DNA of 51,434 nt from Deltaproteobacteria bacterium. GTDB lineage: Bacteria > UBA10199 > SPLOWO2-01-44-7. This document shows, in pieces, positions 2,816 to 47,923 of the stretch. The position numbers were made by a program, and so were the translations under genes. Below the pieces are notes generated by a model. The model ran no database searches, was not told where the DNA came from, and was given only the letters and a program-made list of their open reading frames with translations. The number at the start of each line of letters is the position of its first letter. The first letter of the stretch is position 1. The DNA is taken from NCBI GenBank assembly GCA_023265595.1, contig JAHFSU010000013.1:1-51434 (forward strand), in the 5' to 3' direction.

Positions 2816-3715
2816 ATGGTTAAGCCTTTGAAAGCGGGGGATGTGGTAGGCATTGCGGCGCCGTCGAGCCCTTTCGATCGGAACCTTTTCAAGCATGGGC
2901 TCTCTCAACTTCACAAAATGGGTTTTGAAACTTGGCACCGTGACGATATTTTTCAGCAAGAGCGCTATCTCGCAGGCTCGGATGAACGAAGAGCCGAAGA
3001 ACTCACCGAACTTTTCACGAAAAAAGAAATCAAAGCCATACTTTTTGCCCGCGGCGGCTACGGTTCGCAAAGAATCATCAGATATCTCAAAATCGATACC
3101 ATCAAAAAACACAAAAAGCCGGTAGTCGGTTTCAGCGATATCACGGCCCTCCTTAATTTTTTAAACCAAGAGACCCTGATGCCGACTTTTTATGGGCCGG
3201 TGATCACACAACTCGGAAATCATCCGACCTCCAGAACGATCGAGTCTCTTAAAAATTGTCTGACGCAAAATGAGCCCCCTCCTCCAATCGATTTATCAAA
3301 CTGCCGCGTTTTAAAAGAAGGAAAAAGTGAGGCGAAGTTGGCCGGCGGTTGTCTCTCGCTCATCGCCAGCAGTGTCGGCACCCCTTATGAACTGAAAACA
3401 AGTGGGGTGATTCTTTTTTTTGAAGATACCGGCGAGAAAATCTATGCGCTGGATAGAATGCTTACCCATCTGAAAAATGCCGGAAAGTTTGAAGGGGTGA
3501 ATGGAATTCTTGTGGGGGCATTGGAGCCGAGAGAAGGGGAGGTTCACTCGATGGATGGGATGTTTGGCGATATCTTCAAAGATTTTGACGGCCCCATCGT
3601 CACCCATTTTCCCGCCGGACACACCAACGATTTTGTAACACTCCCTTTGAATTCGCGAATCGTATTAGATACCCAAACTAGACGGTTGGAATTTAAAGAA
3701 TCTCTACTGAAATGA
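2816..3715 (+). CDS. LD-carboxypeptidase / MccF-like serine peptidase (S66 family)
   Basis: LdcA-type enzymes remove the terminal D-alanine from murein tetrapeptides during recycling; MccF relatives cleave acyl-sulfamoyl adenylates. The chain begins MVKPLKAGDVVGIAAPSSPF, the typical N-terminus, and has the nucleophile loop RGGYGSQR with Ser84. It continues with GFSDIT, the FFEDTGE segment (expected catalytic Glu) and PAGHTND with the catalytic His. Its length of 299 residues is normal. The ATG at 2816 is chosen because the family N-terminus starts there; an in-frame GTG at 2783 would add 11 unrelated residues. The stop overlaps the next start (ATGA), so it is translationally coupled to the beta-lactamase-family hydrolase. 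With Mpl at 14.2 kb it points to murein tripeptide salvage. Confidence 0.9.
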   Translation: MVKPLKAGDVVGIAAPSSPFDRNLFKHGLSQLHKMGFETWHRDDIFQQERYLAGSDERRAEELTELFTKKEIKAILFARGGYGSQRIIRYLKIDTIKKHKKPVVGFSDITALLNFLNQETLMPTFYGPVITQLGNHPTSRTIESLKNCLTQNEPPPPIDLSNCRVLKEGKSEAKLAGGCLSLIASSVGTPYELKTSGVILFFEDTGEKIYALDRMLTHLKNAGKFEGVNGILVGALEPREGEVHSMDGMFGDIFKDFDGPIVTHFPAGHTNDFVTLPLNSRIVLDTQTRRLEFKESLLK

Positions 3716-4881
3716 CTAATGCCATCGATCAGATGATGAAAGAAGCAATCGAGAAAGGGGTTTTTCCATCCGCCAGTCTCCTTGTCGCCAAAGAGGGAAC
3801 CATTCTTCACGAAAAAAATTACGGGAAAGCGCGCGCGGGGACCTGTTTCGATATCGCCAGCCTTACCAAGCCGATCGCCACCGCAACACTGGCGATGGAA
3901 TTTGTGCAAGAGGGATTGCTGAAGCTGGAAGATACTGTTTATCAATGGTTGGGGGGGGCCAGACAGCCAGCACATCGCAAGATGACGGTGGCTCATTTAT
4001 TATCACACACTGCGGGGTTGACAGCATGGCGTCCTTTTTATCGCGAGCTCCCCATCGATCAAGTGGGAACGCCGGCCGGAAAACAACACATCATCTTATC
4101 CACACTCAACGAGCTTGTGTTGAGCGAGCCGGGGTCTCAATGTGTTTATAGCGACTTGGGATATATTCTTTTGGGTGAAATTTTGGAGCAGGCCGGTTTG
4201 GCGAACCTTGACGCTCTTTTTCAAACCCGCATCGCAGGCCCTTTGGGACTCAAAGACACTTTTTTTGTACGGAATATTGGATTGTCACAGGGATCCTTCG
4301 ACCCTTCGGCAAGCTCAGGGCTCAGGATGACCGGTGTCTCAACCGCTCATGGTGAGTCTTCAATGCCCGCTCATGGTGAGCTTGTCGAACCACAAAGACG
4401 CTTCGCCCCGACCGAAGATTGTCCATGGCGCGGGCACGTGCTGCACGGCGAAGTTCACGATCAGAATTGCTATGCGATGGGAGGGGTTGCCGGACACGCA
4501 GGATTATTTTCAACGACACAAGATATTCACAAATTTGTCGTCGCGTTCTTGAAATGTTATCGGGGCGAATCCAACTGGCTCTCGCAAGACATCGTCAAAC
4601 AATTTATTGAACCGGACTTCCACACTTCTACACTTAAACACTCCTACACTTACGTACTAGGCTGGGATACACCAACATTTGGAAGCTCCAGCGCCGGCCG
4701 CCATTTTTCGCCCCACTCGATCGGGCATCTGGGTTATACCGGCTGTTCGGTCTGGATCGATCTTGACAAGGATTTTTGGATTATTTTGCTGACGAACCGG
4801 ATCCATCCCGCAACCACCAACGAAAAAATCCGCGCCTTTAGACCGAGGATTCATGATTTGTGTTGGAAAGAGTTTGTGTAA
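3712..4881 (+). CDS. Serine hydrolase of the beta-lactamase / class C penicillin-binding family
   Basis: The 389-residue protein has the SxxK motif SLTK (S50, K53), a Tyr motif YSD at 146-148 and an HLG triad at 339-341 (HLGYTGCSVWID). The fold fits esterases, D-aminopeptidases and PBP4*-like enzymes. No signal peptide is evident. Its start overlaps the LD-carboxypeptidase stop by 4 bp, which suggests a murein- or peptide-related role. Residues about 193-231 (SFDPSASSGLRMTG, then AHGELVEP) are encoded by a dispersed palindromic repeat that entered the gene without breaking the frame. They sit between the Tyr motif and the HLG motif in what is probably a surface loop. The final 73 bp up to near the stop are duplicated at 5673-5745, on the far side of the HEPN-MNT pair. 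Confidence 0.88.
   Translation: MTNAIDQMMKEAIEKGVFPSASLLVAKEGTILHEKNYGKARAGTCFDIASLTKPIATATLAMEFVQEGLLKLEDTVYQWLGGARQPAHRKMTVAHLLSHTAGLTAWRPFYRELPIDQVGTPAGKQHIILSTLNELVLSEPGSQCVYSDLGYILLGEILEQAGLANLDALFQTRIAGPLGLKDTFFVRNIGLSQGSFDPSASSGLRMTGVSTAHGESSMPAHGELVEPQRRFAPTEDCPWRGHVLHGEVHDQNCYAMGGVAGHAGLFSTTQDIHKFVVAFLKCYRGESNWLSQDIVKQFIEPDFHTSTLKHSYTYVLGWDTPTFGSSSAGRHFSPHSIGHLGYTGCSVWIDLDKDFWIILLTNRIHPATTNEKIRAFRPRIHDLCWKEFV
4295..4402. repeat. Family-I palindromic repeat inside the hydrolase gene
   Basis: The stretch holds the dispersed core CCTTCGGCAAGCTCAGG and its inverted counterpart CGCTCATGGTGAGCTTGTCG, with a second partial copy between. The same family occurs at 9198-9293, 21615-21645, 30944-30990 and as an array at 31848-32142. 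Here it is read through in frame. Confidence 0.8.
4802..4874. repeat. 73-bp direct repeat, left copy (end of the hydrolase gene)
   Basis: An exact 73-bp match to 5673-5745. This copy encodes the last residues of the hydrolase before its FV-stop end. The two copies bracket the HEPN-MNT pair and look like boundaries of an inserted cassette, comparable to att sites or a large target duplication (inference). Confidence 0.9.
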
Positions 4882-4947
4882 GGTAATGGGCACTTCATTC
4901 GGCCGTGGTTTTGTTTTTTTGGTGCTGGATTTTTGATCAGTCTTGGA

Positions 4948-4953
4948 TATACT
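4948..4953 (+). promoter_or_regulatory. Possible -10 element of the HEPN-MNT cassette
   Basis: TATACT lies 9 bp before the ATG at 4963. A start site about 7 bp downstream would give a leaderless mRNA. No good -35 hexamer was found at 16-18 bp. Confidence 0.35.
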
Positions 4954-4962
4954 TTGACCTTA

Positions 4963-5352
4963 ATGAAGAGAACATCAAAAAATTGGATGGCCACTTCCGA
5001 GTATGATCTCGATACTGCAGATCATATGTTAAAAAGCGGAAGGTATCTTTATGTTATCTATATGTGTCATCTTTCGCTTGAGAAGCTGTTAAAGGCCGTT
5101 GTGGCAGAGACTCAAGAGGATCTGCCGCCCAAAACACATAATCTGTATCATCTGACAAAATGTATCGACCTCGATATTCCTTCGCAATTTAAACAGCTTT
5201 TTGCGGATCTGAATGCCGCCAGTTTGCCAGTGCGTTATCCTGAAGATCTGGAAAAATTGGCGATCCAGTATAGTAAAGAAGTAGCGCAAACTTATTTAAA
5301 ACAGACAAAGGAGTGTCTCCAATGGCTGAAGCAACATCCGAAGTTGAAATGA
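4963..5352 (+). CDS. HEPN-domain protein, partner of an MNT nucleotidyltransferase
   Basis: A 129-residue all-helical HEPN protein beginning MKRTSKNW, with the characteristic first helix (ASEYDLDTADHMLKSGRY-like), a central helix CHLSLEKLLKAVV, and the late motif VRYPEDLEK. HEPN proteins of this group (COG2250/PF05168 type) pair with minimal nucleotidyltransferases as toxin-antitoxin modules, the HEPN part being a potential RNase. The RX4-6H catalytic motif of HepT is not visible; after the Arg of VRYPED no His follows at the right distance, so RNase activity is doubtful. The ATG at 4963 is preferred over an upstream start at 4933 because the domain starts there. Its 3' end overlaps the MNT gene by 31 bp. 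The pair lies between 73-bp direct repeats. Confidence 0.85.
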   Translation: MKRTSKNWMATSEYDLDTADHMLKSGRYLYVIYMCHLSLEKLLKAVVAETQEDLPPKTHNLYHLTKCIDLDIPSQFKQLFADLNAASLPVRYPEDLEKLAIQYSKEVAQTYLKQTKECLQWLKQHPKLK

Positions 5353-5657
5353 TTTTACGGCAATATGTCCGCGAGCTGATTAAAAATCATGTGCATCCTG
5401 CCAAATTGATTTTGTTCGGGTCTCATGCAAGAGGGACGGCGACGACGTGGAGTGATATTGATATTTCAGTCATTTCTGATGATTTAGAGGGCAAAGGCAT
5501 CTTGGAGCGACAGCTCATTTTGGGAAGAGCCAATCAGGATCTGCAGGCCCCTCTGGATGTCGTTGGCTATACCACGGAAGAATGGGCTCACTCCGAACCC
5601 GGCACGCTTTTGCATCAAATTTTAAAAACAGGAAAAGAAATTTCTTTTAGCGCGTAA
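5322..5657 (+). CDS. MNT-type minimal nucleotidyltransferase (antitoxin-like)
   Basis: A 111-residue protein with the nucleotidyltransferase signature GS-x10-DxD (GSHARGTATTWSDID). MNT partners of HEPN toxins can AMPylate and silence them, as known for MntA-HepT. The start is set at the ATG at 5322: it has an AAAGGAG Shine-Dalgarno 8 bp upstream, which an in-frame GTG at 5313 lacks. The gene overlaps the HEPN reading frame, so the pair should be co-translated. It closes the cassette, ending 15 bp before the right 73-bp repeat. The family call is firm; the antitoxin role is inferred from pairing. Confidence 0.88.
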   Translation: MAEATSEVEMILRQYVRELIKNHVHPAKLILFGSHARGTATTWSDIDISVISDDLEGKGILERQLILGRANQDLQAPLDVVGYTTEEWAHSEPGTLLHQILKTGKEISFSA

Positions 5658-5672
5658 AAGTGAAAAGGATTC

Positions 5673-5745
5673 TCCATCCCGCAACCACCAACGAAAAAAT
5701 CCGCGCCTTTAGACCGAGGATTCATGATTTGTGTTGGAAAGAGTT
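5673..5745. repeat. 73-bp direct repeat, right copy (duplicate hydrolase 3' end)
   Basis: Identical to 4802-4874. Read in the hydrolase frame it would continue WKEL-HQSVIVA to a TAG at 5768-5770, a possible original gene end that the insertion displaced. It stops 7 bp before the end of the convergent transglutaminase-like gene. Confidence 0.9.
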
Positions 5746-5752
5746 GCATCAA

Positions 5753-8700
5753 TCAGTAATCGTTGCGTAGCGTGGCAGGCAAGACAGCGCCGCCGAAACG
5801 TTGTTGCAAAAGTCCTTCAAGAGAACGGTAAGAGGCGGTTTGCATCTGGATATCCATCCCGATGCTGCTTTTTTGGTGCATGCTGGCAATGACCACCTCT
5901 TTTTTGCGCGTGAGGATCGCGCGCAAGGCATCGGTCAAAATATCCTCATCGACAAACTCGAGTTGGGGAATTTTTTCCGGCGTCACAAGGGCGCTCTCCA
6001 TGAGATCAACCACCGCTTCGGCCGCTTGATCGGGATTCAAGGCAACCATTTTTTTGAAAAGATTTTTGGCATCATCGCTGCTTTTGGATAAAACCGCTGC
6101 CGCTAAAACATAGGCCCAACCCTTGGCGGCCACCACTGTATTTTTAAAATGAGCCGTCTCCTCGAGTTTCGGAAGAAGATGGTCCACCAGCTCGCCTCCA
6201 TGCCATCGGATATTTTGAAGTTGCCGGCTCATTTTTTCGCTGCAATCGAATCGGGCGCTGCTATCGGCACATTCTTCATCATCATTAAAAAGGGAGGCAG
6301 AACCGAGAAGAATCCAGTCAGAAAAAATATCGGCCTTGGGATCTCCCATCGCTGACCAGAAAAAGAGTTCCGTATTTTCAAGATCGCCCCGCAATATCGC
6401 ATCTCTTAGTGCCAGCTCAAACGGATTGCGAAAGGAAAGCACAGCTGATTCGTTCGGAAAAGCATCGCCATTATTATTATTTGCACTATAATGTTTGACC
6501 TGCCACGCCGCAAATTTGTTTCGTTTCTCCTGCTCAATATCGAAATCGCCTCCAGCAAAATATCGTCCCGCCTGCATAGCCTTATCTCCCCCTATGTAAA
6601 CAGATCTTCCCTCGGCATTGTGTGTCTCGGGATAGGAGGGTTCAAAACAGCGGATCGCCCCCTCTTTTGCAAAGCAGGATTGGGCGTTGTGCAGCTCTCC
6701 CTGAACCAAATTTTTTCCATCTTTTAAATAAACCGGCAGCGATGCTTTTCCGTCCGACAATACCAGATGATCCTGATCTAAAATCTCCGCAACGATAGCG
6801 ACATTGGAAATATCCTGTAGTTCCATGAACAGACTACTTCTGATCGGTTGTGTAATGTGCAGCCCATCTTCTTCAGACCCCAAGAGGAGATCGACATCCA
6901 CCCTTCCCCCTTCCTTCACATCCCACGACCATGAGCGCCTTTTAGAAATATCTTCTTCTCCATCAGGATTGATGTGCCGCAACGCCGCACGTTGAGACTC
7001 TATTGATTTGAAATCGAGAGAGCCATCATTGGCCAAGCTTATGTTATGAAGTAAAGGAGTCTCTATTCCCAGAGAATATATTTTTTTATCCCCTTTAAAA
7101 ACAGATCCCCAAAATCGTTGGCCATTAGAGCCATGCACAATAAAATGGGAACCATCGGGACTGAATTTATGTGTAACACCAACAAGTTTATCGTCTTGCG
7201 CTGGAAACTCCATCAAGGGATTCTCGAGGCGGGTCAAATCCAAAAGATACGATCCATTTTTAATTTCTGACCACTCTATTTTAGTTTTATACAAACGGAT
7301 CGTCCCTTTTTGATCGAACACCGTTGTCGCCACCAAAATTCCCCCCTCGGTCTCTTTGTAAGAGGCTCTCCAGTTCTTGGCATCCCCCGCATTCACTTTC
7401 GTGTGGAGAACATAAGGGGGCCTTGAGAGGGTCAAAAAATTGGTACCAGAAGCCCAATATAACTGTTTTCCATCTTGGTCGATCACTTTGTGTATCGGAT
7501 CTGGGCAGTAGGAATTTGCTGGCGACGGAAATTGCATTCCATGTTTATTGGCAATGTTATCATTTCCCTCCTGTGGAATAATATTTGTACATTCGAGATC
7601 GATTGAAAATCCGTCCAGAGTTTCCTGAACTGAGTTGACCACCGCCGCGCATTTCGACTGATCAAACGGAACAGAGGACATCCGGTCATATTCCAAATCA
7701 TAAACAGAAACGGTTTTCTCATCGGAACTTTGTCCTACCAGATAGCGGCCGGAGGGGCGCGACAAAACTGAAGTCCGATTTTCGCTTTCACCCAAAAAAA
7801 CACGGTACGATTCGACAAAGGGGGTAACGCTCCTATCTTTTGCCTCCAAAAATTCGAGAGGGGTTATTTTGATAGGGAATATCTGTTTTTCTTTCGACTT
7901 TTTTTCCGTCATCGGCGGCGTCACATCGCCTCGCACCCAATGTCCCAAATGATCATCCCAATATTCAAGCCAGCCGTGGCGACCGATTCCTCTCTCGTCG
8001 AGATAAAACCCCACCACCAATCGCGCCGGTACTCCCAGCTTGCGGAGCAACACCACACCGTAGCCGTTGGCCACATCGCAATCGGCCAGATGCATTTCGG
8101 ATAGGCCACCATAAAATTCTTTTCCATTCGCTTCAGGATAGTCGGCATGGCCGTTCAAAATATCCTTCATCTCGGGATATTGAAATTCCTTGGAGATAAA
8201 ATTATGAATCGCTTCATATTTTTCTTGGGCTCCATAAACTTGGGTTTGGTTTTGAAGACTGGCAACAAGCGGAGGAAGCGACACTCCGGGCAATATATCG
8301 CCTACGGCCTCTGCCGCATCGGAGACCAAAATGCCCGGCTCCTCTTTCAAATCAAACTCGACTTCGGTGCGGTTAGTAAAAACAATTCCCTCATCCCCGT
8401 TGAGGCGCAAATAGATGATGCCATTTTTGTCGCGCACCAGATCAAACCCCTCGTAGGAGTCATTCAGCCGAACACTCTTTGCATCGAGGACAAACCCATC
8501 GGGGACAGGAAGAATGAAGAGGGCGTCTTTTCCATAATAAATTTTAGCCCTGTCTTGCGGCTCCATAATCCCCCGATAGTGATGAGTCGTTTCTTGAAGA
8601 TTATCGGAGTAGCTTTGAAAACCGGAAGGGGTGGAGACCCACTCATTATGATCTGCATTGTAATGATCCAAAACATGCTGGCGGATGTAGTGGGAGCCAT

Positions 8701-9178
8701 GAAAAAGATCGGGGGTGAATTGCATTTTTGTTTTTAGAGATTTATCAAATTTGGTTTGAATAATATCCAATCTGAAATTGTCGGTCTTATGCTTGAACTC
8801 TTTCGCCGCCAGTTTCCCAAAACGGGAAACACCTCTCTTCAAAGCCTCGCAATCATAATCGTAGCCATAGACATTGCCATCGGATGGATCCCGATAAACG
8901 GCGATGAAAACTTCATCTTCGGGGCACGATTGATTTTTGAGGATGCCGTCAAACTTGTCGCCGTCTTGAATGCGAAGAGAGATATAGTCAGCAAGCGCTT
9001 TTACTTCGCTGCTCTGGGTCTCTTGGGCCGCGGCTTGCGCCTTTTCAAGGGCCTCTTTTTTGTCCCCATTGGAAAAGGCGATCATCGCCTCGCCCAGCTT
9101 TAAACTCCATTCGGTGCGTCGGCTACTCATATAGGTATTATCGGCAGAAGGAGGGGGCAAAGTTGCTTTAAAAAACAT
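5753..9178 (-). CDS. Large protein with a transglutaminase-like domain
   Basis: About 1141 residues from the ATG at 9178. A transglutaminase-like (papain-fold) core lies near 7.9-8.15 kb: the Cys in LADCDVANGYG, then LLRKLGVPARLVVGF, the His in GRHGWLEYW and the Asp in GDVTPP. These make a plausible Cys-His-Asp triad, so a peptidase or cross-linking activity is possible. The N-terminal ~100 residues resemble short helical repeats (GEAMIAFSNGDKKEALEKAQAA). The long C-terminal part is unrecognised, with beta-rich stretches and a final helical region. No signal peptide is apparent. The open frame extends upstream to 9244 through a palindromic repeat (MTGHPELVEG), which I exclude; an ATG at 9130 is another possible start. 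No good Shine-Dalgarno marks either. The gene lies downstream of the acyl-CoA synthetase on the same strand. Confidence 0.75.
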   Translation of the reverse strand: MFFKATLPPPSADNTYMSSRRTEWSLKLGEAMIAFSNGDKKEALEKAQAAAQETQSSEVKALADYISLRIQDGDKFDGILKNQSCPEDEVFIAVYRDPSDGNVYGYDYDCEALKRGVSRFGKLAAKEFKHKTDNFRLDIIQTKFDKSLKTKMQFTPDLFHGSHYIRQHVLDHYNADHNEWVSTPSGFQSYSDNLQETTHHYRGIMEPQDRAKIYYGKDALFILPVPDGFVLDAKSVRLNDSYEGFDLVRDKNGIIYLRLNGDEGIVFTNRTEVEFDLKEEPGILVSDAAEAVGDILPGVSLPPLVASLQNQTQVYGAQEKYEAIHNFISKEFQYPEMKDILNGHADYPEANGKEFYGGLSEMHLADCDVANGYGVVLLRKLGVPARLVVGFYLDERGIGRHGWLEYWDDHLGHWVRGDVTPPMTEKKSKEKQIFPIKITPLEFLEAKDRSVTPFVESYRVFLGESENRTSVLSRPSGRYLVGQSSDEKTVSVYDLEYDRMSSVPFDQSKCAAVVNSVQETLDGFSIDLECTNIIPQEGNDNIANKHGMQFPSPANSYCPDPIHKVIDQDGKQLYWASGTNFLTLSRPPYVLHTKVNAGDAKNWRASYKETEGGILVATTVFDQKGTIRLYKTKIEWSEIKNGSYLLDLTRLENPLMEFPAQDDKLVGVTHKFSPDGSHFIVHGSNGQRFWGSVFKGDKKIYSLGIETPLLHNISLANDGSLDFKSIESQRAALRHINPDGEEDISKRRSWSWDVKEGGRVDVDLLLGSEEDGLHITQPIRSSLFMELQDISNVAIVAEILDQDHLVLSDGKASLPVYLKDGKNLVQGELHNAQSCFAKEGAIRCFEPSYPETHNAEGRSVYIGGDKAMQAGRYFAGGDFDIEQEKRNKFAAWQVKHYSANNNNGDAFPNESAVLSFRNPFELALRDAILRGDLENTELFFWSAMGDPKADIFSDWILLGSASLFNDDEECADSSARFDCSEKMSRQLQNIRWHGGELVDHLLPKLEETAHFKNTVVAAKGWAYVLAAAVLSKSSDDAKNLFKKMVALNPDQAAEAVVDLMESALVTPEKIPQLEFVDEDILTDALRAILTRKKEVVIASMHQKSSIGMDIQMQTASYRSLEGLLQQRFGGAVLPATLRNDY

Positions 9179-9197
9179 TTGTGATTTCAAGTGGTTA

Positions 9198-9293
9198 ATT
9201 GGATTGCCTCGTCGTCCTTCGACAAGCTCAGGATGACCGGTCATGGTGAGCCTTCAATACCCGCTCATGGTGAGCCTGTCGAACCACGCAATG
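9198..9293. repeat. Family-I palindromic repeat at the synthetase/transglutaminase junction
   Basis: It contains TCCTTCGACAAGCTCAGGATG and the inverse GGTGAGCCTGTCGAACCA, flanked by GGATTGC and GCAATGAC. It supplies the last ~20 codons of the upstream acyl-CoA synthetase (VRQAHHERVLKAHHDR) and the spacer to the next gene. Confidence 0.8.
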
Positions 9294-29096: not shown

Positions 29097-29123
29097 GTTA
29101 AATTATACTAAATATAGTTAAAT
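29097..29123. promoter_or_regulatory. Promoter/operator region of the MNT-HEPN pair
   Basis: GTTAAAT occurs as direct repeats at 29097-29103 and 29117-29123, 20 bp apart, around a TATACT box (29104-29109). The encoded protein starts with an excisionase-type HTH and may bind here (inference). Confidence 0.4.
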
Positions 29124-29133
29124 ATGTTTAGAT

Positions 29134-29673
29134 ATGAACAAAATATATACACCGGAAGAGCTGGCAGCCACTTGGAAAGTCTCGCTTTTAACCATTTATA
29201 AGCTCTTGGGTCAGAATAAAATCCCTCATTTTAAAGTGGGGAGGGCCTATCGGATCCCCGAAGATTTTTTGCAATCGTACATGGAGCGGGAGGGAAATCT
29301 TTCCCAATTTTTAAAAAAACCGGAAAAAATGTTGCCGAAGGTGGCCCAATATTTCATCGATTTTCTCCAAAAAGAACCAAAAGAAAAACAGGAGAACGTT
29401 TTGGAAATCCGTCTTTTTGGATCGTATGCAAGGGGAGAGGCGACCAAAGATTCGGATGTGGATCTCATAATGATAATGGAAAATTATGATTTTGATGCCG
29501 ATCGTTGGGTTGCTTCTTTAAGCGATCTTGCTATGGAGAAGGGCGATTACAACGATCTGCTATCTGTATTGCGCATGTCCAAAGAGCATTGGGAGAAACA
29601 ACAGCAATTAAAAACCCCGTTATATGAAGAGATAGAAAAGGATGGGATTTTATTATGGCCGATATCGAAGTGA
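29134..29673 (+). CDS. Excisionase-type HTH fused to MNT nucleotidyltransferase
   Basis: In this 179-residue protein, residues 1-52 form an excisionase/MerR-like DNA-binding domain (YTPEELAATWKVSLLTIYKL, then PHFKVGRAYRIPEDFLQSY). Residues ~85-160 form a minimal nucleotidyltransferase with GS-x10-DxD (GSYARGEATKDSDVD). It probably acts as antitoxin and autorepressor for the HEPN protein encoded next, whose start overlaps its end by 19 bp. The fusion differs from the stand-alone MNT at 5.3 kb and from the winged-HTH fusion at 13.6 kb. No Shine-Dalgarno precedes the ATG. Confidence 0.87.
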   Translation: MNKIYTPEELAATWKVSLLTIYKLLGQNKIPHFKVGRAYRIPEDFLQSYMEREGNLSQFLKKPEKMLPKVAQYFIDFLQKEPKEKQENVLEIRLFGSYARGEATKDSDVDLIMIMENYDFDADRWVASLSDLAMEKGDYNDLLSVLRMSKEHWEKQQQLKTPLYEEIEKDGILLWPISK

Positions 29674-30080
29674 TTCAATCGTATCAAAAACGGGCAGAAG
29701 AAGATTTAAAAGCGGCGGAACAGATGCTTGCTTCCAAATTTCATTTAGCCGCTGTTTCTCTGGCTTATTACGCCGTATTCTATGCGATTACCGCTGCTTT
29801 GCTCGCAAAAGGAATCAAGGCCCGTAAACATAAACAACTGGGTATTGAATTTCGCAGGGTGTTTATTAAAACAGAAATACTGCCGAAAAAATACAGCGCA
29901 ATTTTGGATGCATTATTTCATGCTCGGCAAACAGCAGACTATGATGCTGTCCCCAAAATTGAACAAGAAGATGTCCAAAAACTTTTAGAGGATGCCAAAG
30001 AATTTGTAACAGTTTTGAATAAACTGGATTCCGGCGCCTGCCCCGTACTGCGATACGGGGGCCGCCGGAATGACGGCTAA
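29655..30080 (+). CDS. HEPN-domain protein, partner of the HTH-MNT protein
   Basis: A 141-residue helical HEPN protein. Seen are SYQKRAEEDLKAAEQMLAS, a central SLAYYAVFYAITAALLAKG and the late FHARQTADYDA motif typical of COG1895/COG2250-type HEPN. The strict RX4-6H RNase motif is not seen. It follows the HTH-MNT gene with overlapping frames, in the reverse order of the first pair (HEPN then MNT). The last ~18 residues (LDSGACPVLRYGGRRNDG) are encoded by family-II palindromic repeat sequence, so the native C-terminus was probably nearer residue 123. The stop is directly followed by polX. Confidence 0.85.
   Translation: MADIEVIQSYQKRAEEDLKAAEQMLASKFHLAAVSLAYYAVFYAITAALLAKGIKARKHKQLGIEFRRVFIKTEILPKKYSAILDALFHARQTADYDAVPKIEQEDVQKLLEDAKEFVTVLNKLDSGACPVLRYGGRRNDG
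30027..30078. repeat. Family-II palindromic repeat at the HEPN gene end
   Basis: CTGGATTCCGGCG, CCCCGTACTGCGATACGGGG hairpin, CCGCCGGAATGAC. It encodes the C-terminal tail of the HEPN protein and ends 3 bp before polX. Confidence 0.7.
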
Positions 30081-31847: not shown

Positions 31848-32142
31848 GTCATGGTGAACTTTAGAGATCGCTCATGGTGAGCTTGTCGAACCACCCTTCG
31901 ACAAGCTCAGGGTGAGCGGGTTGTTTTCCGCTCATGGTGAACTTTAGAGATCGCTCATGGTGAGCTTGTCGAACCACCCTTCGACAAGCTCAGGGTGAGC
32001 GGGTTGTTTTCCGCTCATGGTGAATTGTAGAGACCGCTCATGGTGAGCTTGTCGAACCACCCTTCGACAAGCTCAGGGTGAGCGGGTTGTTTTCCGCTCA
32101 TGGTGAATTTTAGAGACCGCTCATGGTGAGCTTGTCGAACCA
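31848..32142. repeat. Tandem array of an 83-bp palindromic unit
   Basis: About 3.5 copies with exact 83-bp period: matching points fall at 31851, 31934, 32017 and 32100. Each unit carries a near-perfect hairpin with 12-bp arms GAGCTTGTCGAA / TTCGACAAGCTC plus flanking CGCTCA and TGAGCG, and a linker GGTTGTTTTC. Variation is limited to a few bases (CTTTAGAGATC versus TTGTAGAGACC). No gene is contained. It lies between polX and the GIY-YIG gene. Confidence 0.9.
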
Positions 32143-32439: not shown

Positions 32440-32608
32440 CGCATCCTTCGACAGAGCTCAGGATGAGCGTTGGTCGTGTTAGGATGAGCGTTAGTCGCAG
32501 CAGGATGAGCGTTGGTCGTGTTAGGATGAGCGTTAGTCGCAGCAGGGTGAGCGTTGGTCGTGTTAGGATGAGCGTTAGTCGCAGCAGGATGAGCGTTAGT
32601 CGCATTAT
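32440..32608. repeat. 21/42-bp minisatellite at the start of nth
   Basis: Alternating 21-bp units (AGGATGAGCGTTGGTCGTGTT and a variant ending AGTCGCAGC) give a 42-bp period, about four times. They are preceded by the family-I core CATCCTTCGACAGAGCTCAGG. In the nth frame each unit reads RMSVGRV or RMSVSRS. Confidence 0.85.
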
Positions 32609-33206
32609 ACAAATTCTCCGCAAAACGTATCCTGATGCCGAGTGCGCCTTGCATCATGACGATCCGTTGCAGCTTTTGGTGGCGACGATTCTGTCGGCAC
32701 AATGCACCGATAAGCGGGTGAATAGGGTGACGCCCGCATTATTCAAAAAATATCCTAATGCCAAATCGTTTGCCGAGGCCAATTTAAAAGAGTTGGAACA
32801 AGATATTCACTCCACCGGTTTTTACAAAAACAAGGCGAAGGCGATCAAAGGGTGTTGCCAGTTGATTCTCGTCAATCATGGTGGCCAAGTTCCAAAAACA
32901 TTAGAAGAGTTGGTACATTTGCCGGGGATCGGCCGCAAAACCGCAAATGTCGTGCTGGGGGTAGCCTTTGGTGTTCCGGGTATCGTGGTCGATACCCATG
33001 TAAAGCGACTCACATACCGAATGGGGCTTACAAAGCAGACCGACCCCGAAAAAATTGAAAGGGAGATGATGGAGATAATCCCCAAAAAAGACTGGACCGA
33101 CTTTGGACTTCTCCTGATTGCTCACGGACGCGCCATTTGCGAGGCGCGCAAACCGAAATGTGAAATCTGTCCTCTCAACCGCCTCTGCCCCAAAGTAGGC
33201 ATCTAG
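32589..33206 (+). CDS. nth: Endonuclease III (DNA glycosylase/AP lyase)
   Basis: 205 residues from ATG 32589, close to the usual Nth length. It has the catalytic Lys in LSAQCTDKRVN, the HhH motif LPGIGRKTANVVL, the catalytic Asp in VDTHVKRLTYRMGL and the four-cysteine iron-sulfur loop CEARKPKCEICPLNRLC (C-x6-C-x2-C-x5-C). It removes oxidised pyrimidines. The frame is open back to 32394, and would add an arginine-rich repeat tail (RMSVGRV/RMSVSRS) encoded by the minisatellite. As each repeat carries an ATG, several starts are possible. I choose the last ATG because it matches the family N-terminus. Confidence 0.9.
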   Translation: MSVSRIIQILRKTYPDAECALHHDDPLQLLVATILSAQCTDKRVNRVTPALFKKYPNAKSFAEANLKELEQDIHSTGFYKNKAKAIKGCCQLILVNHGGQVPKTLEELVHLPGIGRKTANVVLGVAFGVPGIVVDTHVKRLTYRMGLTKQTDPEKIEREMMEIIPKKDWTDFGLLLIAHGRAICEARKPKCEICPLNRLCPKVGI

Positions 33207-42500: not shown

Positions 42501-45500
42501 AAGAGGGGCACCCAGCTACGATGATGATAGTAGCCCGCATCTATGACAAGAGTTCTGACGATCCTGTTGCGGTAAAACTCTGGAAAGAGATTGCCCAAAT
42601 TTTGGCCGGTGTGGATTCGGCCTCTCCTCTTCAAACATTGGTCGATTTTATCGATGGGTGGGGGCAGGCAAACTACGAAACCATTGTTTCTGCTCCCGGT
42701 CTAAAAGAAATCCACGGCCTTTTTGTCCTTCAGACAAAATATTTTTATACACGATCTGTTTTGGATGCTGAATCCGATGCAATGCGGAAAAAAATGAAGG
42801 AGGGAAAAAATGTCATTGAAGAGATGGGGCTCCCCATGGGGGAGATTTCCGCAAAAAGGATGGATGCCATTTTCGCAAAGGGGATTCTACGTCCGCAAGG
42901 GATGCCGACTGAGGTGGGCAAAAAAGTGATTGAGGCCCTTTGGGTGATGAGACCCAAGTTTGGGCGTCTTTTTGAATATCTCTCTACAATAGCCCCCGGC
43001 TTTTTGGATCACTTCACAGCAAAAATGCTCGAGGTGATGTGGCAGAACCAGACACAACTGGGGCAGAAGAGCAATTGGGATTGGAATGACACGAATCAAG
43101 TGACCGGCGCCATTCATTTCTATACAGCTTTGATGCTACGCCATTTTGAAGCGCAAATTTTCTATCCCGATATCTTTAAAAATTATCGCCCGATGGATTG
43201 GTATCAGCTTTACTTCGATACCGGCGCAAAAATTTATCAGGAACTCTCCAAATGGCCAAGTCATTTTGGTTTGCGGATTGTCGGTTGGAAGCGGTTTGAA
43301 GGTAAATCCTATGCCGTTTCTTCCGCTGAGCGGGAGAAAATTTTGAATGGGGTTTTAGAATTTGAGGCGATCGATTTGGAAACCGGTGAGACAGTGCAAA
43401 TCAAACCCCCGGCAAAAATCACACCCGATCAATTTCGGTGGACATGGCCAAGCAATGCCCATGCGAATAACCACTGGGAACGCTTAGGAAAAATGTATGC
43501 CGATCCCCGTTATATGGTTGTCGCTAAAATTTATGAAGAGGCTTTTTATTTGGCAACGCGTGATATCAAACCCGATCCGAGATTGACGACGGTTTTGCTG
43601 GACAGTCTTGTAGGGCCCTATTTTGAAGATATTGAAGAGGTAAAAAAACATTTTGTTTTAATCTACCGCGAATACGTTTCCGAAAGTTCCCGGTTTTCAG
43701 CGGCTTATGAAAAGATATCTTCCGGTATGAGAGGAGACTGCTCCGAGGCCTATCCAAGCGAGCAGGCATCCCCCGAAGATTGGGAAAAATATATTGGTGA
43801 AAGACGTGTCAATCTCCTTGTTCGTCATCTGAATGGCTACGACCGCCGCCTCGATGAAGCGTATGAAAGTTATTATAATGTTGTGACATCTCCCTCTCCC
43901 CCTGTGCCTGCCCGCCGGTTGTTTGGCGGGGGAGAGGGTGAAAAAATCCTCCGCGAGTGGCTCGAATTTTTGGCCGAGTCGGTTGCCAATATGGATATCG
44001 GCAAAATGATGTCGATGGATGAGGCAAAAGCCAAGAGTTATGTCCACCGGTTTTTCACTGTTTTTGACAAGTTGTACGAACGGCTTAAGGCCGAAAATCG
44101 AATGGATGAAATCGATGAAATACGGGAACTTCTTTTTGATGTGTTTTTCAAACAGGGTATCAAAACGTGGATAGGACCCTCTTTTGAAAAATATTTGGAA
44201 TTTAGACAATGGTTTCAGAGAGAATTGATTGTGAGATTGGGTGAAGAGGAAGAATGGCAAGCGGTGCTAAACCGGCTGAAAGCCGCCGGCAAAATTATTT
44301 TTCCTTATAATAGTGATATTGGCGTTCGGGAATATGACGCTCTTTTTAGAGACTGTTTGAAAAAGACGGCCCCCTTGATGAAAAAGGCCAAGTTTAAAAA
44401 ACCGCCGGAGGCTTTTTTAAGCGCGTTTGATCGCTTGCGGAAATTGCAACATGCCCACCCGAAGCTATCGTCAACAATATTGTTCTCATTGATGATTGAA
44501 GAAAAGACCCTTCATCCGTCGGACAAAGATGCCTTTGGATTTTTATATAGTTCCGTTTCTCAAGCGCTCTATAAAACCCATTCCGCGGCAGAAGAAAAAT
44601 TCGAAGTGGCATTGGTGGCTGATTTTCCGCAACTCGCCGTCGGCAACCTCATCTACCACGAAACGCCGCCGGGGCTGGGGGGGACTATGGACCTGGGGAT
44701 GGGAGCGGATATCATTCTGGATGACAAGCCGTGGGAAATCCTTCTGCGTGAGGCCAATGCCGAGACCGATCGTCTGATGCACAAGGAAGAGCCGGCAGTG
44801 GTTTCAGATGGCATCAAAGTAACCCCTCCTTTGTTTGAGGCTCTCCAAAAAATCCCGGGTGATTATGTTTCCAAGACTCTTCAATCCACCTTGAAATTTC
44901 TTGACGATATCGGCCTGAAGCAGGTTCAAGTTGACCCCCGTATTCCGGCCGCCGACGGACAGAAAGAGATTAACAATTATTGTCTCCGTCTCCTCTGGGC
45001 CTATGACAAGTTTGGATTTGAGTTTGAGGCTCTGCAAAAAGGTTCGTTTGCTGACATCTATCGCGATTTCAAGGCGGCCAAACAATTGCCGATCCATTCC
45101 GCGGAACGCTTTGATGCGATGATGAAAATGGGGCGTCGACTCGCAGAAACAATGGGGATTAAAAGAATGACAGAAGTCGAGTTTGGCAAGATCAGGGATG
45201 CTCATAACGCATATCTTCACTTTATAGCCGGTGTCGCAGAAGAGCTGGATGTCGATGAGATATTGCAAAACAAACTGGTTGGGTGGATCGTCGGACATCG
45301 GCGAGATCCTTTTTTTCCGCTTTCACTGGCTCTATTTCGTGACTCCGATTTGAATCGCCGTTTTTCAGAAGCCAAAGAAAAACTTCTGGCCCATCTTAAA
45401 ACATTGCCGGCAACTCGGATGCAGCCTTTTGCCGATGATTTGCAAATCGATTTTCCGGAACTTTCTTGGGAGAAGAAATCTCCCTCACCCCCCGCCACAC

Positions 45501-47923
45501 AATCCGCGGGCAGGCAGCCCTCTCCTCCTTCGACTTCGCTCAGGACAGGCTCCAGGGGAGAGGGAGATATGGTTCCCTCCCCCTTGATGGGGGAGAGTCA
45601 GGGAGAGGGTGAAGGTGAAAATATTTATGATGCCCGGATGAGAGAGGCACTGGCAAAAGCCACTTGGCATGTGGGAGGAACGGATCCAAAGGGAGACCGG
45701 CTCTCTTTGATCACGGCATTCAATTCCCTGTTTGAAGCGTTCCGCGGAACCCCCTCAAACCACACTTTTACTCCGGCCATGAGGGTAAAAGAAATGCTCG
45801 ACCAACATGGCCGGATGATCGTCGGCATATATAATGATCTGGATGCAGATTTACAAAAAGAGGCAAATCAATATTTTTTCCGCCTCTTGTGGGCCTACGA
45901 CAAGTTTGGATTTGAGTTTGAGGCCCTTACAAAAGAGCCTTTTGCCGGCATTTATCAGCCATTCAAGGCGGCCAAACAATTGCCGATCCATTCCGCGGAA
46001 CGCTTTGATGCGATGAGAAAAGTAAGATATCAACTCGCAGAAAAAATGGGGATTGGAAGGTCGACAGAAATCGAGCTTGGTAAGATCAAGAATGCTTATA
46101 TCACATATCTTCACTTTATAGCCGGTGTCGCAGAAGAACTGGATGTCGATGAGGCATTGCAAGAAAACTTGCTCGGGTGGATCATGTTACATCGGCGAGA
46201 TCCCTTTTTTCCGGTTTCGTTATTACTATTTCGTAAATTCGACATGCATCGCCATTTTTTAGCAGCCAGAGAAAAACTTCTGGCCCATCTTAAAACATTG
46301 CCGGCAACTCGGATGCAGCCTTTTGCCGATGATTTGCAAATCGATTTTCCGGAACTTTCTTGGGAGAAGAAATCTCCCTCACCCCCCGCCACACAATCCG
46401 CGGGCAGGCAGCCCTCTCCTCCTTCGACTTCGCTCAGGACAGGCTCCAGGGGAGAGGGAGATATGGTTCCCTCCCCCTTGATGGGGGAAAGTCAGGGAGA
46501 GGGTGCAAATTACGACACTCTTTTGCAAAAAGCGATGGATAAGGCGTTGGCAGAGGGTGAAAAGGCAAAAAGAGGGGTTGGAATATCATCGGAAAGACCC
46601 GTTGGAAGTGTGGCCCCGGTTTTCGAAGTTTTGAAAACAATTCCATCAGATCATCGCTCGGAAACTCTGGATGCGAGTTTCAGAATATTAAATAATGGAT
46701 TGAATGGCATAATGGGGATGGATGACAGGATGCGTTCACAGGTGCAAGCGACCATTAACCGAAAATCCCTCCAAGCTCTTTGGGCCTACGACAAATTTGG
46801 GCATGAGTTCGACATCTTTCAAAAATGGCCTTTCAGAAGATTGATGGCGGATATTCGCTTTTTAAGAGAGGTCCGTTTGCATCCGGAAGAGGTTGATCAG
46901 GCAAGATGGCAGAAGGCACTGCAACATGTCCATCGGGAATTAACACGGCACGGTATTGTGACAAGTCCCCTCCCCCCCCGCCATACAACCGGCGGGCAGG
47001 CATCCCCCTCCCCCGCCACACAACCGGCGGGCGGGCAAGGCAAAGTGGAGGGGGAAGTTTATCCATGGCTAGAGTGGGAAACCAAACCCGATTTTGATGC
47101 GATTTTGCGAACAGGTCTGGATGAAAGACATCGTGTTGAGAGAGAAATTTTTGGGGCCAATGGTGATCACGCAACGCATGTTGTGACAGGGAAGGCGTAT
47201 GTCATGACCCCCGCCAAATGGATCGAACAGCTTTTGCCGACGGAAGACCCCCTCTTTGAGGCTTTTAGAATGATACCCCCCGATTATCGCTCCGACCGTT
47301 TTGCAGAAGACTTGAAAAACAGGGATGGTGAGGGGATGCAGCTCATCAAGGCATGGAACGATCTGAACGGAGAGCAGAAAGAAGTCGCCGAGCAATATTT
47401 TTTGCGCTTGTTGTGGACCCACGACAAATTTGGATTTGAGTTTGAGGCGCTTCAAAAAGGCCCGTTTGCCGACATCTATCACGATTTGAAGGCGGCCAAA
47501 CAACTTTCCATAGGCTCTACAGAACGGGTAGTTGCAATACAAACCATTTATGATCCGTTAATTGAAAGGGAAGTGGTAAAACGCGTTGATAACTCTGAAG
47601 GGATAAAGATTCTACAATCTCCATCCGGCTATTTTAGATTTATTAAATATGGAGCAGAAAAAACTGGTATGGCCGAAGGCATGCAAGGCATTTTACATGT
47701 TAGGGCCGTTCATAGGCGTTTGAACCCGTTTTTCCCTGAATGCTTGTTTCATGTTTTTTCATCATCAAGAGACCTTGAAGCAAATTTTGAGGAGAAGTTT
47801 TTGGAATCTCGCGAAAAACTCCTCGCCCACTTAAAAACCCTGCCGGCCGACCGCCTGCAACCCTTCGCCAAAGAACTCCTCCTCGACTTTCCTGAATTAT
47901 TTTGGGAGGGAGTTGTTAACTAG
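36569..47923 (+). CDS. Giant protein of unknown function (3784 residues)
   Basis: One uninterrupted frame of 11.4 kb. No known domain, signal peptide or membrane helix was recognised; the chain is mostly alpha-helical, rich in Glu, Lys, Ala and Leu. A charged coiled-coil-like stretch lies near residues 1550-1600 (EEEAKRAAAVLEAQLAEEAK). The last ~1030 residues hold four degenerate units: A ~2750-2968, B ~3025-3267, C ~3316-3466 (partial) and D ~3498-3784. They share LRLLWAYDKFGFEFEAL, FKAAKQLPIHSAERFDAM and EKLLAHLKTLPA. Units A and B keep an exact 894-bp period. About eight short proline- and glycine-rich segments are translated dispersed repeats. Codon use and long in-frame divergence between units argue for a real gene. 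A Fis-like HTH gene follows. Cytoplasmic location is likely, but the role is unknown. Confidence 0.72.
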   Translation: MAEIIGKFGTFGFFNPTPLGQDLAGGVGGGGLDAETLTHLEVLDSAMQFAQQQKADTLLSHNQPPPNKLLALIPNGWLTGNGFAKKELPDIPLPHTWATSTRLHLADFIAEQAKVHSFTLDPDSRIAVWDKFRRDDGSKMIAAAGANGNGSQVGAWIAEATKAYVGLKQHEFKNILIDAFSNLRDGFRPEKESLGRGPSEQKMQAALRKAVKDVEDIPQPTNSDLDPYLDIFRRLVLDHFQELGLVGTKTALPKTPPPPKARWSSDHIDSQVKAALQLEKTFIDTLTTLPAGDPQSEAQTIINQVKEAVALLQSLPTDDAKRKAMLADKDKQEKILAAIKTVFDVSLELETLRIREISSGIDAEEVKNYLQIIAARLAELLRKPSIALAGIDPNALQEMAKIYIRNWIGLHKNARPEMLTLSWQALNAAAFEALQKVLELQKFADEAAQELFKVNFLREARQLIYGIVTWEELRKPKDKSGKVRLTPSHLSYAERVALLGEMYPLMQMHYDDLVKAGRLADANIFQELLYRYVDFAHLRPDALLTLEPEIVHAILEQTENPHLYTDGGLNALREFFEIATGKQIAPLTPLPLPPPSRGGGCLPAGCLAGGKGETSYLPYQSGSGLEQLLQHPAFEVLKDDLGREAFRNTTGLTLDAVKSWGKKRKIEFVHDDVAHEPKDHQQMLDVYYYLNQLAGFHNMQIDFWDFLAAVFPAAGQMRDAAQMGKNSSRDIVVRIPHVVENIAFANLSYQQLAVGIRAKGFLDLPSVLKQHAASGVQRPHWDTLEGIARYLSEKAGGDEAHQKQVYYFLILLRLIDVIPSATEIRDTFDTILSNHDRSLLSRYRLLVLPEDPEITYEATEDETEATARKWPISEIKSGYFDTALEWMERRVASLKFILNGQQAMIFSDGTQKTVADIQKEVGILRQQHSIYKGDLNAVATESPLRKEGRQDYVRRMRQFYRHFLLEFKKIILMAHSPQAQQVGFLWIRYEIVPVIKGLRIKPAGADSVAVGLDDILELAQQENWAPERIRNIFHLRLVTEELLRQGLSADVIPSPCQSTGQAPAGIQKYFLGDISQSIDDEKQLAAKTQAKQTQLTLNEKDLLKSFETPLARHSATRKPYYLSIPNWEESLSDLFKDAGRDGFVANDIAVAKRYFAAVVTPQSHFSEEVLHDAALAIYAKEEDAGEACRRLKIFFPTILVDCGLEYPKTAKEDAADLSVLLEEALTRYLDLFPSLKFIKNGGQAIEEIVVDEDLLIKVVDDLLREKPEARGYRSYLIKNLRPQIGEYVEAADKTGLRRFQEESTALPTAGLFAERFRSFFPSPSATLPADRRPSPTGGGGKGEGELRNAYFRLTSLYQGKMPPDAEIAEGLKHFVQYQWEAISRLASLLSDSEKGIKSYLARNFKAPLIDAGAMERIAIQYMRCRILGVLPFDMEEACLTEAKAHFGSYPKLLGQAAQMYRAILSRYFTDLENYFSALYDLILNEMETVAANSVTETREEFLEEVTKRYPTLEEAKTAFDLSQLLGTRNLRDFSAVVDDSYARVVKRLVGQRRLEEMARAHDEEEAKRAAAVLEAQLAEEAKRREELERKIDAVPFPKIPEVAILEENIWRASPDARERYFNTLLAVKTGMEALKGELEAVEVVIASPMSLLNGAKQSSIITAKQSAFAQFKKEALKRRHDFFASLTAVIDSQKADEEAKLLLANAQKRAELDSSFVQAYQKMAGAIWDYFTVANAILDVQPEGVTWQSLGELRQQAYKVSLLFIQRRDEVNQESLRLSSIDRSLPPADAIRQQAEKLAKRTLSQKEAIEKWLQSDREFSVTLEDLSALMKHEVACDVAQDQVYEHITTLFSHLPITHFVPVQVSLPDLPSGPFLNKDGKEILVLNPVTVSETDRTEYSEAVEHTLNIFNTAEGAYLLDARGVQRLFRQPVAKGARFKDILGNEFILPELVSTAMDAVDLSKEHPYAHFVVNLRRLMKEGHPATMMIVARIYDKSSDDPVAVKLWKEIAQILAGVDSASPLQTLVDFIDGWGQANYETIVSAPGLKEIHGLFVLQTKYFYTRSVLDAESDAMRKKMKEGKNVIEEMGLPMGEISAKRMDAIFAKGILRPQGMPTEVGKKVIEALWVMRPKFGRLFEYLSTIAPGFLDHFTAKMLEVMWQNQTQLGQKSNWDWNDTNQVTGAIHFYTALMLRHFEAQIFYPDIFKNYRPMDWYQLYFDTGAKIYQELSKWPSHFGLRIVGWKRFEGKSYAVSSAEREKILNGVLEFEAIDLETGETVQIKPPAKITPDQFRWTWPSNAHANNHWERLGKMYADPRYMVVAKIYEEAFYLATRDIKPDPRLTTVLLDSLVGPYFEDIEEVKKHFVLIYREYVSESSRFSAAYEKISSGMRGDCSEAYPSEQASPEDWEKYIGERRVNLLVRHLNGYDRRLDEAYESYYNVVTSPSPPVPARRLFGGGEGEKILREWLEFLAESVANMDIGKMMSMDEAKAKSYVHRFFTVFDKLYERLKAENRMDEIDEIRELLFDVFFKQGIKTWIGPSFEKYLEFRQWFQRELIVRLGEEEEWQAVLNRLKAAGKIIFPYNSDIGVREYDALFRDCLKKTAPLMKKAKFKKPPEAFLSAFDRLRKLQHAHPKLSSTILFSLMIEEKTLHPSDKDAFGFLYSSVSQALYKTHSAAEEKFEVALVADFPQLAVGNLIYHETPPGLGGTMDLGMGADIILDDKPWEILLREANAETDRLMHKEEPAVVSDGIKVTPPLFEALQKIPGDYVSKTLQSTLKFLDDIGLKQVQVDPRIPAADGQKEINNYCLRLLWAYDKFGFEFEALQKGSFADIYRDFKAAKQLPIHSAERFDAMMKMGRRLAETMGIKRMTEVEFGKIRDAHNAYLHFIAGVAEELDVDEILQNKLVGWIVGHRRDPFFPLSLALFRDSDLNRRFSEAKEKLLAHLKTLPATRMQPFADDLQIDFPELSWEKKSPSPPATQSAGRQPSPPSTSLRTGSRGEGDMVPSPLMGESQGEGEGENIYDARMREALAKATWHVGGTDPKGDRLSLITAFNSLFEAFRGTPSNHTFTPAMRVKEMLDQHGRMIVGIYNDLDADLQKEANQYFFRLLWAYDKFGFEFEALTKEPFAGIYQPFKAAKQLPIHSAERFDAMRKVRYQLAEKMGIGRSTEIELGKIKNAYITYLHFIAGVAEELDVDEALQENLLGWIMLHRRDPFFPVSLLLFRKFDMHRHFLAAREKLLAHLKTLPATRMQPFADDLQIDFPELSWEKKSPSPPATQSAGRQPSPPSTSLRTGSRGEGDMVPSPLMGESQGEGANYDTLLQKAMDKALAEGEKAKRGVGISSERPVGSVAPVFEVLKTIPSDHRSETLDASFRILNNGLNGIMGMDDRMRSQVQATINRKSLQALWAYDKFGHEFDIFQKWPFRRLMADIRFLREVRLHPEEVDQARWQKALQHVHRELTRHGIVTSPLPPRHTTGGQASPSPATQPAGGQGKVEGEVYPWLEWETKPDFDAILRTGLDERHRVEREIFGANGDHATHVVTGKAYVMTPAKWIEQLLPTEDPLFEAFRMIPPDYRSDRFAEDLKNRDGEGMQLIKAWNDLNGEQKEVAEQYFLRLLWTHDKFGFEFEALQKGPFADIYHDLKAAKQLSIGSTERVVAIQTIYDPLIEREVVKRVDNSEGIKILQSPSGYFRFIKYGAEKTGMAEGMQGILHVRAVHRRLNPFFPECLFHVFSSSRDLEANFEEKFLESREKLLAHLKTLPADRLQPFAKELLLDFPELFWEGVVN
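38325..38406. repeat. Family-III repeat in the giant gene, site 1
   Basis: CCCCCCTCCCCCTTCCCC, then GGGGAGGGGG, CTGCCCGCCGGTTGTTTGGCGG. Translated as PLPLPPPSRGGGCLPAGCLAGG at residues ~586-613. Confidence 0.75.
39719..39769. repeat. Family-II-like repeat in the giant gene
   Basis: GTCATTCCGTCCCCGTG, then CACGGGGC and GCGGGAATCCAG. Translated in frame as VIPSPCQSTGQAPAGIQ. Confidence 0.65.
40527..40602. repeat. Family-III repeat in the giant gene, site 2
   Basis: CCCTCTCCCTCCGCCACACT, ACCGGCGGACAGGC, then CCCACAGGGGGAGGGGGTAA. Translated as PSPSATLPADRRPSPTGGGG in residues ~1321-1346. Confidence 0.75.
41498..41552. repeat. Another dispersed-type repeat in the giant gene
   Basis: GTCATTGCGAGCCCC ... 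GGGGCGAAGCAATCC, resembling a common bacterial intergenic repeat whose arms GGATTGC/GCAATGAC also flank the family-I copies here. Translated as VIASPMSLLNGAKQSS. Confidence 0.5.
43887..43942. repeat. Family-III repeat in the giant gene, site 3
   Basis: TCTCCCTCTCCCCCTGTGCC, TGCCCGCCGGTTGTTTGGCG, GGGGAGAGGGTG. Translated as SPSPPVPARRLFGGGEGE. Confidence 0.75.
45377..45611. repeat. Near-identical 235-bp block, copy 1
   Basis: Matches 46271-46505 with one visible mismatch at offset 894 bp. It covers the end of unit A (KLLAHLKTLPATRMQPFADD) and a family-III/family-I linker (SPSPPATQSAGRQPSPP). Confidence 0.85.
46271..46505. repeat. Near-identical 235-bp block, copy 2
   Basis: The second copy of the block at 45377-45611, covering the end of unit B and the same linker. 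Flanking parts of units A and B are clearly more diverged, which suggests gene conversion. Confidence 0.85.
46966..47056. repeat. Family-III repeat in the giant gene, site 6
   Basis: CCCCTCCCCCCCCGCCATAC, AACCGGCGGGCAGGC, then CCACACAACCGGCGGGCGGGC and GGAGGGGGAAG. Translated as PLPPRHTTGGQASPSPATQP between units C and D. Confidence 0.75.

Follow-up and report, generated by a model that had tools for sequence, protein, structure and literature searches.

A gene pair that lies between two identical copies of its neighbour's end raises the question of how it arrived there, all the more when no integrase accompanies it. Such a pair is found in the window, by which we mean the whole 51,434-nucleotide stretch of contig JAHFSU010000013.1 analysed here (assembly GCA_023265595.1, Deltaproteobacteria bacterium). 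Transposase-free movement of chromosomal toxin-antitoxin (TA) modules is a long-standing gap. A duplicated host gene end is a readable scar, which marks the site and the recency of a unit's arrival, and any bacterial genome can be screened for it.

A HEPN-MNT pair between copies of a hydrolase gene end

The first-pass annotation had described exact 73-bp repeats at the hydrolase end and after the MNT gene, and the two copies indeed match at 73 of 73 positions with a spacing of 871 bp (Table 1). A search of the whole assembly (1.87 Mb in 70 contigs, 97% complete) found these two copies in total and no further ones, and the repeat is thus unique in the genome. By chance, an exact repeat of at least 26 bp is expected about 1e-9 times per 3.4-kb stretch. 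The left copy stops 4 nt short of the hydrolase stop codon (4879-4881), and the intact gene ends in KEFV-stop. The orphan copy runs on in frame as KELHQSVIVA-stop, with the stop at 5770, and this confirms the HQSVIVA end that had been read earlier.

Table 1. Features of the hydrolase locus (window coordinates) and further bracketed inserts in the same genome
Feature	Location	Strand	Evidence or remark
Host gene, serine hydrolase, 389 aa, end ..LCWKEFV-stop	3712-4881	+	PF00144, Pfam; orthologues in relatives
Left repeat copy, on the intact hydrolase gene; final 73 bp before the stop region	4802-4874	+	Repeat match
HEPN-domain toxin candidate, 129 aa	4963-5352	+	PF05168, E=1.8e-20
MNT antitoxin candidate, 111 aa, GSX10DXD motif (GSHARGTATTWSDID)	5322-5657	+	PF01909, E=2e-11
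Right repeat copy, an orphan gene end 15 bp past the MNT stop	5673-5745	+	Repeat match
Transglutaminase-like gene, convergent, 1163 aa; 3' end overlaps the orphan hydrolase end	5753-9244	-	
RelBE pair and HEPN-MNT pair in an array	C35 (L041)		Three separators, copies of one DUF35/ChsH2-type gene's 3' end
Gp49-HTH pair, next to another HEPN-MNT	C23		139/141-bp repeat
HicAB			Flanked by copied gcvPB ends
199-aa protein			Flanked by rlmN-end copies; second copy at contig end, less certain
Fic and truncated DUF1016	C58 (L267:12636-15448)		Flanked by SNase-like gene-end copies

The HEPN and MNT genes are the only genes between the copies. They are adjacent, intact and Pfam-supported, and their ORFs share 31 bp. 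The earlier description of a small TA unit without an integrase, behind a gene whose end is copied, therefore holds. The catalytic motif of MNT was read from the sequence, and the protein scored 40.6 of 60 bits against the MntA antitoxin model, which is under the cut-off. No R followed by H at the spacing of the RX4-6H RNase motif was found across the 129 residues of the HEPN protein. Judged from its sequence, the pair is a putative toxin-antitoxin system in which HEPN is without the RX4-6H motif. A second pair in the window, an HTH-MNT fusion with HEPN at 29122-30080, has no bracketing repeats.

Relatives that lack the cassette had been proposed as a comparison by the first-pass annotation. 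Four genomes of the same family (G001, G003, G004 and G005) carry a single hydrolase end, without repeat and without cassette, in a comparison that is between species. Among 29 hydrolase loci, none showed a comparable repeat. As the genome is derived from a metagenome, two copies of a gene end could also be produced by mixed strains or by contig ends that were duplicated; this assembly is fragmented, and two other arrays run up to the end of their contig (C23, C52). Such an artefact is very improbable, because 73 bp is shorter than the usual read length and because the pattern recurs, with copies that have diverged, in more than ten genomes, some assembled into about 20 contigs, whereas control loci do not show it.

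The window also contains other kinds of repeats. At 4300-4400, the hydrolase gene contains in frame a dispersed element (TCATGGTGAGCTTGTCGAA and its complement), which adds a stretch near residues 194-227, unlike in G001. The element is also found at 9217-9284 and 31872-32140, and forms an 83-bp tandem array at 31849-32140. In 927 kb of the genome it is present in about 20 copies. At 32459-32620, an endonuclease III-like ORF has a 42-bp minisatellite read into its start. The repeats at 45005-47503, in a large ORF with an 894-bp period and a 235/236-bp near-identical block, were set aside as a probable intragenic duplication.

Other bracketed inserts in the same genome

We surveyed about half of the genome (G000; 927,546 bp) in 20-kb stretches and found five more inserts that lie between copies of the 3' end of the gene before them (Table 1). 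Three of the five are TA units, namely RelBE with HEPN-MNT, Gp49-HTH, and HicAB; the genome has eight HEPN loci. The separators were traced to the 3' end of the adjacent host gene at every locus except C23, where the parent gene is off the contig and the repeat reads as a gene end (..DLLKEVDKKS-stop). At the far edge of the L267 insert, the DUF1016 gene is truncated at the copied SNase gene end. Several other direct repeats were set aside. Those of L049 and L055 (read directly) and of L238, L240 and L265 (from repeat spacing only) are intragenic or belong to tandem paralogues, those of L045, L234 and L259 are REP-like or of low complexity, and the one at L041:16614 is a scaffold gap.

The DUF35/ChsH2-type 3' end (L041:6815-8377 in C35, with orthologues L150-L162) lies beside thiolase and mutase genes. 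In six of 13 orthologues in the class, this gene end carries TA-type genes, whose kinds differ by species; a REP-type transposase is located at it in G043. It is a landing place for varied TA pairs across the class. Between G000 and G001, the RelBE pairs share 78% identity, and the HEPN-MNT pairs at the site are of different HEPN types. In both genomes, the orphan copy adjoins the same ancestral flank, the region upstream of relBE. Because this flank is common while the HEPN types differ, two unrelated HEPN-MNT units probably entered the site independently, each leaving a copied gene end.

Bracketing in other genomes and anatomy of the cassettes

Across 46 genomes of the class, we listed every HEPN locus found and retrieved most of them together with their flanking sequence; each genome contributed its best family matches, so that the sample is non-random. 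With a fixed rule (at least 26 matching bases in repeats on either side of the gene), 12 of 92 HEPN loci in the class and three of 24 in other phyla were bracketed. The search for further repeat-flanked HEPN-MNT pairs, which had been suggested at the outset, therefore gave a positive result. None of the control loci was bracketed (0/24 for acetyltransferase and 0/27 for hydrolase, 0/51 together), and the difference from the HEPN loci is significant (Fisher p=0.003). RelBE, HicAB and HigA-type units also occur bracketed. The families are unequal, with HEPN-MNT over-represented, since PIN/VapC loci were bracketed in 0 of 24 cases and RelE loci in one of 22. These rates may be underestimates, because repeats longer than reads break assemblies. 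Comparison at the protein level added L074 and showed some copied ends to be diverged yet protein-like; the CRISPR repeats of L113 were excluded. Thus the pattern goes beyond the first-pass annotation in being widespread, in involving several TA families and in forming arrays.

Most repeats copy a gene 3' end or a terminator (kinase, ABC permease, MYXO-CTERM-like protein, guaA, SCP2-like), and in L127 and L136 gene 5' parts are copied instead. Repeat lengths range from 26 to 428 bp, and the sequence differs at every locus. The cassettes are trimmed closely to their genes. Among 19 units, the distance from the last stop codon to the repeat has a median of 16 bp and is at most 42 bp in 16, and that from the repeat to the first start codon has a median of 54 bp. 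Cassettes vary in their orientation with respect to the host gene, and a search for terminal inverted repeats or for ends common to the cassettes found none. Arrays with three repeat copies are present in L041 and L142. In the latter (L142:2643-4419, G005), copies of one terminator separate MNT-HEPN from a DUF4258/DUF2283 pair, which suggests that this pair is itself a TA-like unit. Cargo other than TA genes was seen in G029 (L135:6138-8062), where the end of an alpha/beta-hydrolase gene, copied over 195+74 bp, brackets an NYN-domain RNase gene.

The first-pass annotation had likened the locus to site-specific integration at a gene 3' end, possibly acting in trans. The inserts would then be remnants of integrative elements, or non-autonomous ones, with attL and attR at a gene 3' end, which had lost their interior or integrase (CIME-like) and were served by a tyrosine recombinase in cis or in trans. 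Such elements typically rebuild gene 3' ends and form arrays, and one locus in the class (L062) uses the end of guaA, which we take to be a known island site. However, each locus has its own gene and its own repeat, the inserts hold little besides TA genes, and the repeats of L127 and L136 copy gene 5' parts. A search of the window's own genome for recombinases gave two XerC/XerD-like tyrosine recombinases only, with no serine recombinase or resolvase and no non-Xer tyrosine recombinase such as an IntI integrase. As the loci have no core in common, each uses a different gene and only XerC/XerD-like proteins are encoded in this genome, site-specific integration is disfavoured, also in trans, and we consider this origin quite unlikely.

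How the gene ends may have been copied

We give roughly even chances to the reading that the HEPN-MNT pair is an addiction cassette and that insertion with long target duplication (PMC1643837) brought it to the hydrolase locus. A trimmed piece of DNA with only the HEPN and MNT genes would have become attached where the hydrolase gene ends, and copying of the 73-bp target segment would have left one copy on the gene and one past the cassette. A recombinase encoded by the cassette would not be necessary. The duplication would most plausibly come from repair DNA synthesis, either by capture of the fragment in a staggered break that is then filled in, or by a template switch out and then back. Surviving events would be those that keep the host gene intact, and gene ends would be favoured in this way. 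Most inserts between long direct repeats would be deleted by ordinary recombination, and TA addiction may retain the ones that we see; a stabilising role has been proposed for both TA and restriction-modification (RM) units (PMC3031569), with which this agrees. This gives a testable reason for the dominance of addictive genes, as the sole survivors between long direct repeats. Arrays could come from later events or from unequal recombination at the same gene end.

Target duplication accounts for the identity of young repeats, for their variable length and for inserts being trimmed, and also for the ancestral flank next to the orphan copy. This flank, seen at the DUF35 locus in G000 and G001, is what target duplication requires. 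Against pure duplication, the two copies in L131, L229 and L267 have different stop codons at the same position. The probability of this coincidence in three of seven cases is p=0.003 by chance, or 0.04 if stops are 2.5-fold favoured. Furthermore, the copies of L074 differ at 10 synonymous and 4 non-synonymous codons, and its orphan end looks functional and of another lineage. The middle DUF35 copy retains ancestral residues that are absent from the current gene. These comparisons of the copies suggest donor gene ends over pure duplication. Codon-position counts in diverged pairs were tried as a test of donor versus decay and discarded, as they give no discrimination when one copy is under selection.

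Donor ends are expected if the units were captured through homology. Donor DNA with a TA unit behind an orthologous gene would recombine with the recipient where the gene end is conserved, by a single crossover of a circularised fragment or by one-sided homology-facilitated illegitimate recombination (HFIR), and the two repeat copies would be the gene ends of donor and recipient. Both HFIR and the single crossover of linear DNA that has been circularised are known to occur (PMC3240628), and the genome that carries the window has a ComEC DNA-uptake gene. The natural in-frame stops on both copies, together with the differing stop codons, favour this explanation, as do the diverged ends with conserved protein in L074, L107, L225 and the middle DUF35 copy and the varied TA-type genes at the DUF35 gene end. 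On the other hand, many repeats are 97-100% identical, so donors would need to be conspecific, and the first insertion is left unexplained; random fragments are also expected to be untrimmed, whereas the cassettes are trimmed to their genes. We regard capture through homology as a serious rival, though at well below even chances. The 73/73 repeat of the window is compatible with both routes.

A dedicated process of cassette mobility could also be considered. It would recognise the ends of genes in the cassette as well as in the target, move TA units that are trimmed to within tens of bases of their start and stop codons, and insert them at the stop codons or terminators of other genes with duplications of 26-428 bp. 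In many bacterial lineages, arrays like those of integrons would then arise with no integrase. We think it rather unlikely that such a process exists.

Comparison with known systems

Makarova et al. 2009 (PMC2701414) described recent MNT-HEPN insertions in gene clusters and operons that are absent in sister genomes, but gave no direct repeats or mechanism. Several mobile systems share part of the anatomy described here. In genomic islands, IMEs and CIMEs, direct repeats likewise rebuild a host gene 3' end and tandem arrays occur, whereas here there is no integrase, common core or shared target, and only about 0.5-1.2 kb of TA genes is carried. Integron gene cassettes are also trimmed one- or two-gene cassettes in repeat-separated arrays; in contrast to these, our cassettes have no integron integrase and their repeat is the local host gene end, specific to each locus. 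The pdif/XerCD modules of Acinetobacter plasmids hold TA modules between recombination sites and lack their own recombinase, but dif modules have one conserved Xer site, while the repeats found here are mutually unrelated.

The closest likeness is to RM genes. Insertion of RM genes with long target duplication was reportedly described by Nobusato et al. in 2000 (Gene 259:99) and by Furuta et al. in 2010. It is reviewed in PMC3874152. Both cases have an addiction-type pair, a long, variable and locus-specific target repeat of about 100 bp, no transposase and empty relatives. They differ in that the cargo here is TA (HEPN-MNT, RelBE, HicAB, Gp49-HTH) with no RM unit, and in that mostly gene 3' ends are used, arrays have up to three copies and cassettes are trimmed to genes. 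Our literature search found no report that links insertion with long target duplication to TA cassettes. The mobility of MNT-HEPN and the long target duplication of RM genes were known beforehand; what appears to be new is that both are joined for TA cassettes. The scar around several TA units suggests a way to spread without a mobility enzyme of their own and ties TA modules to the insertion mode of RM genes. Compared in this way, the bracketed cassettes look like the TA counterpart of RM insertion with long target duplication.
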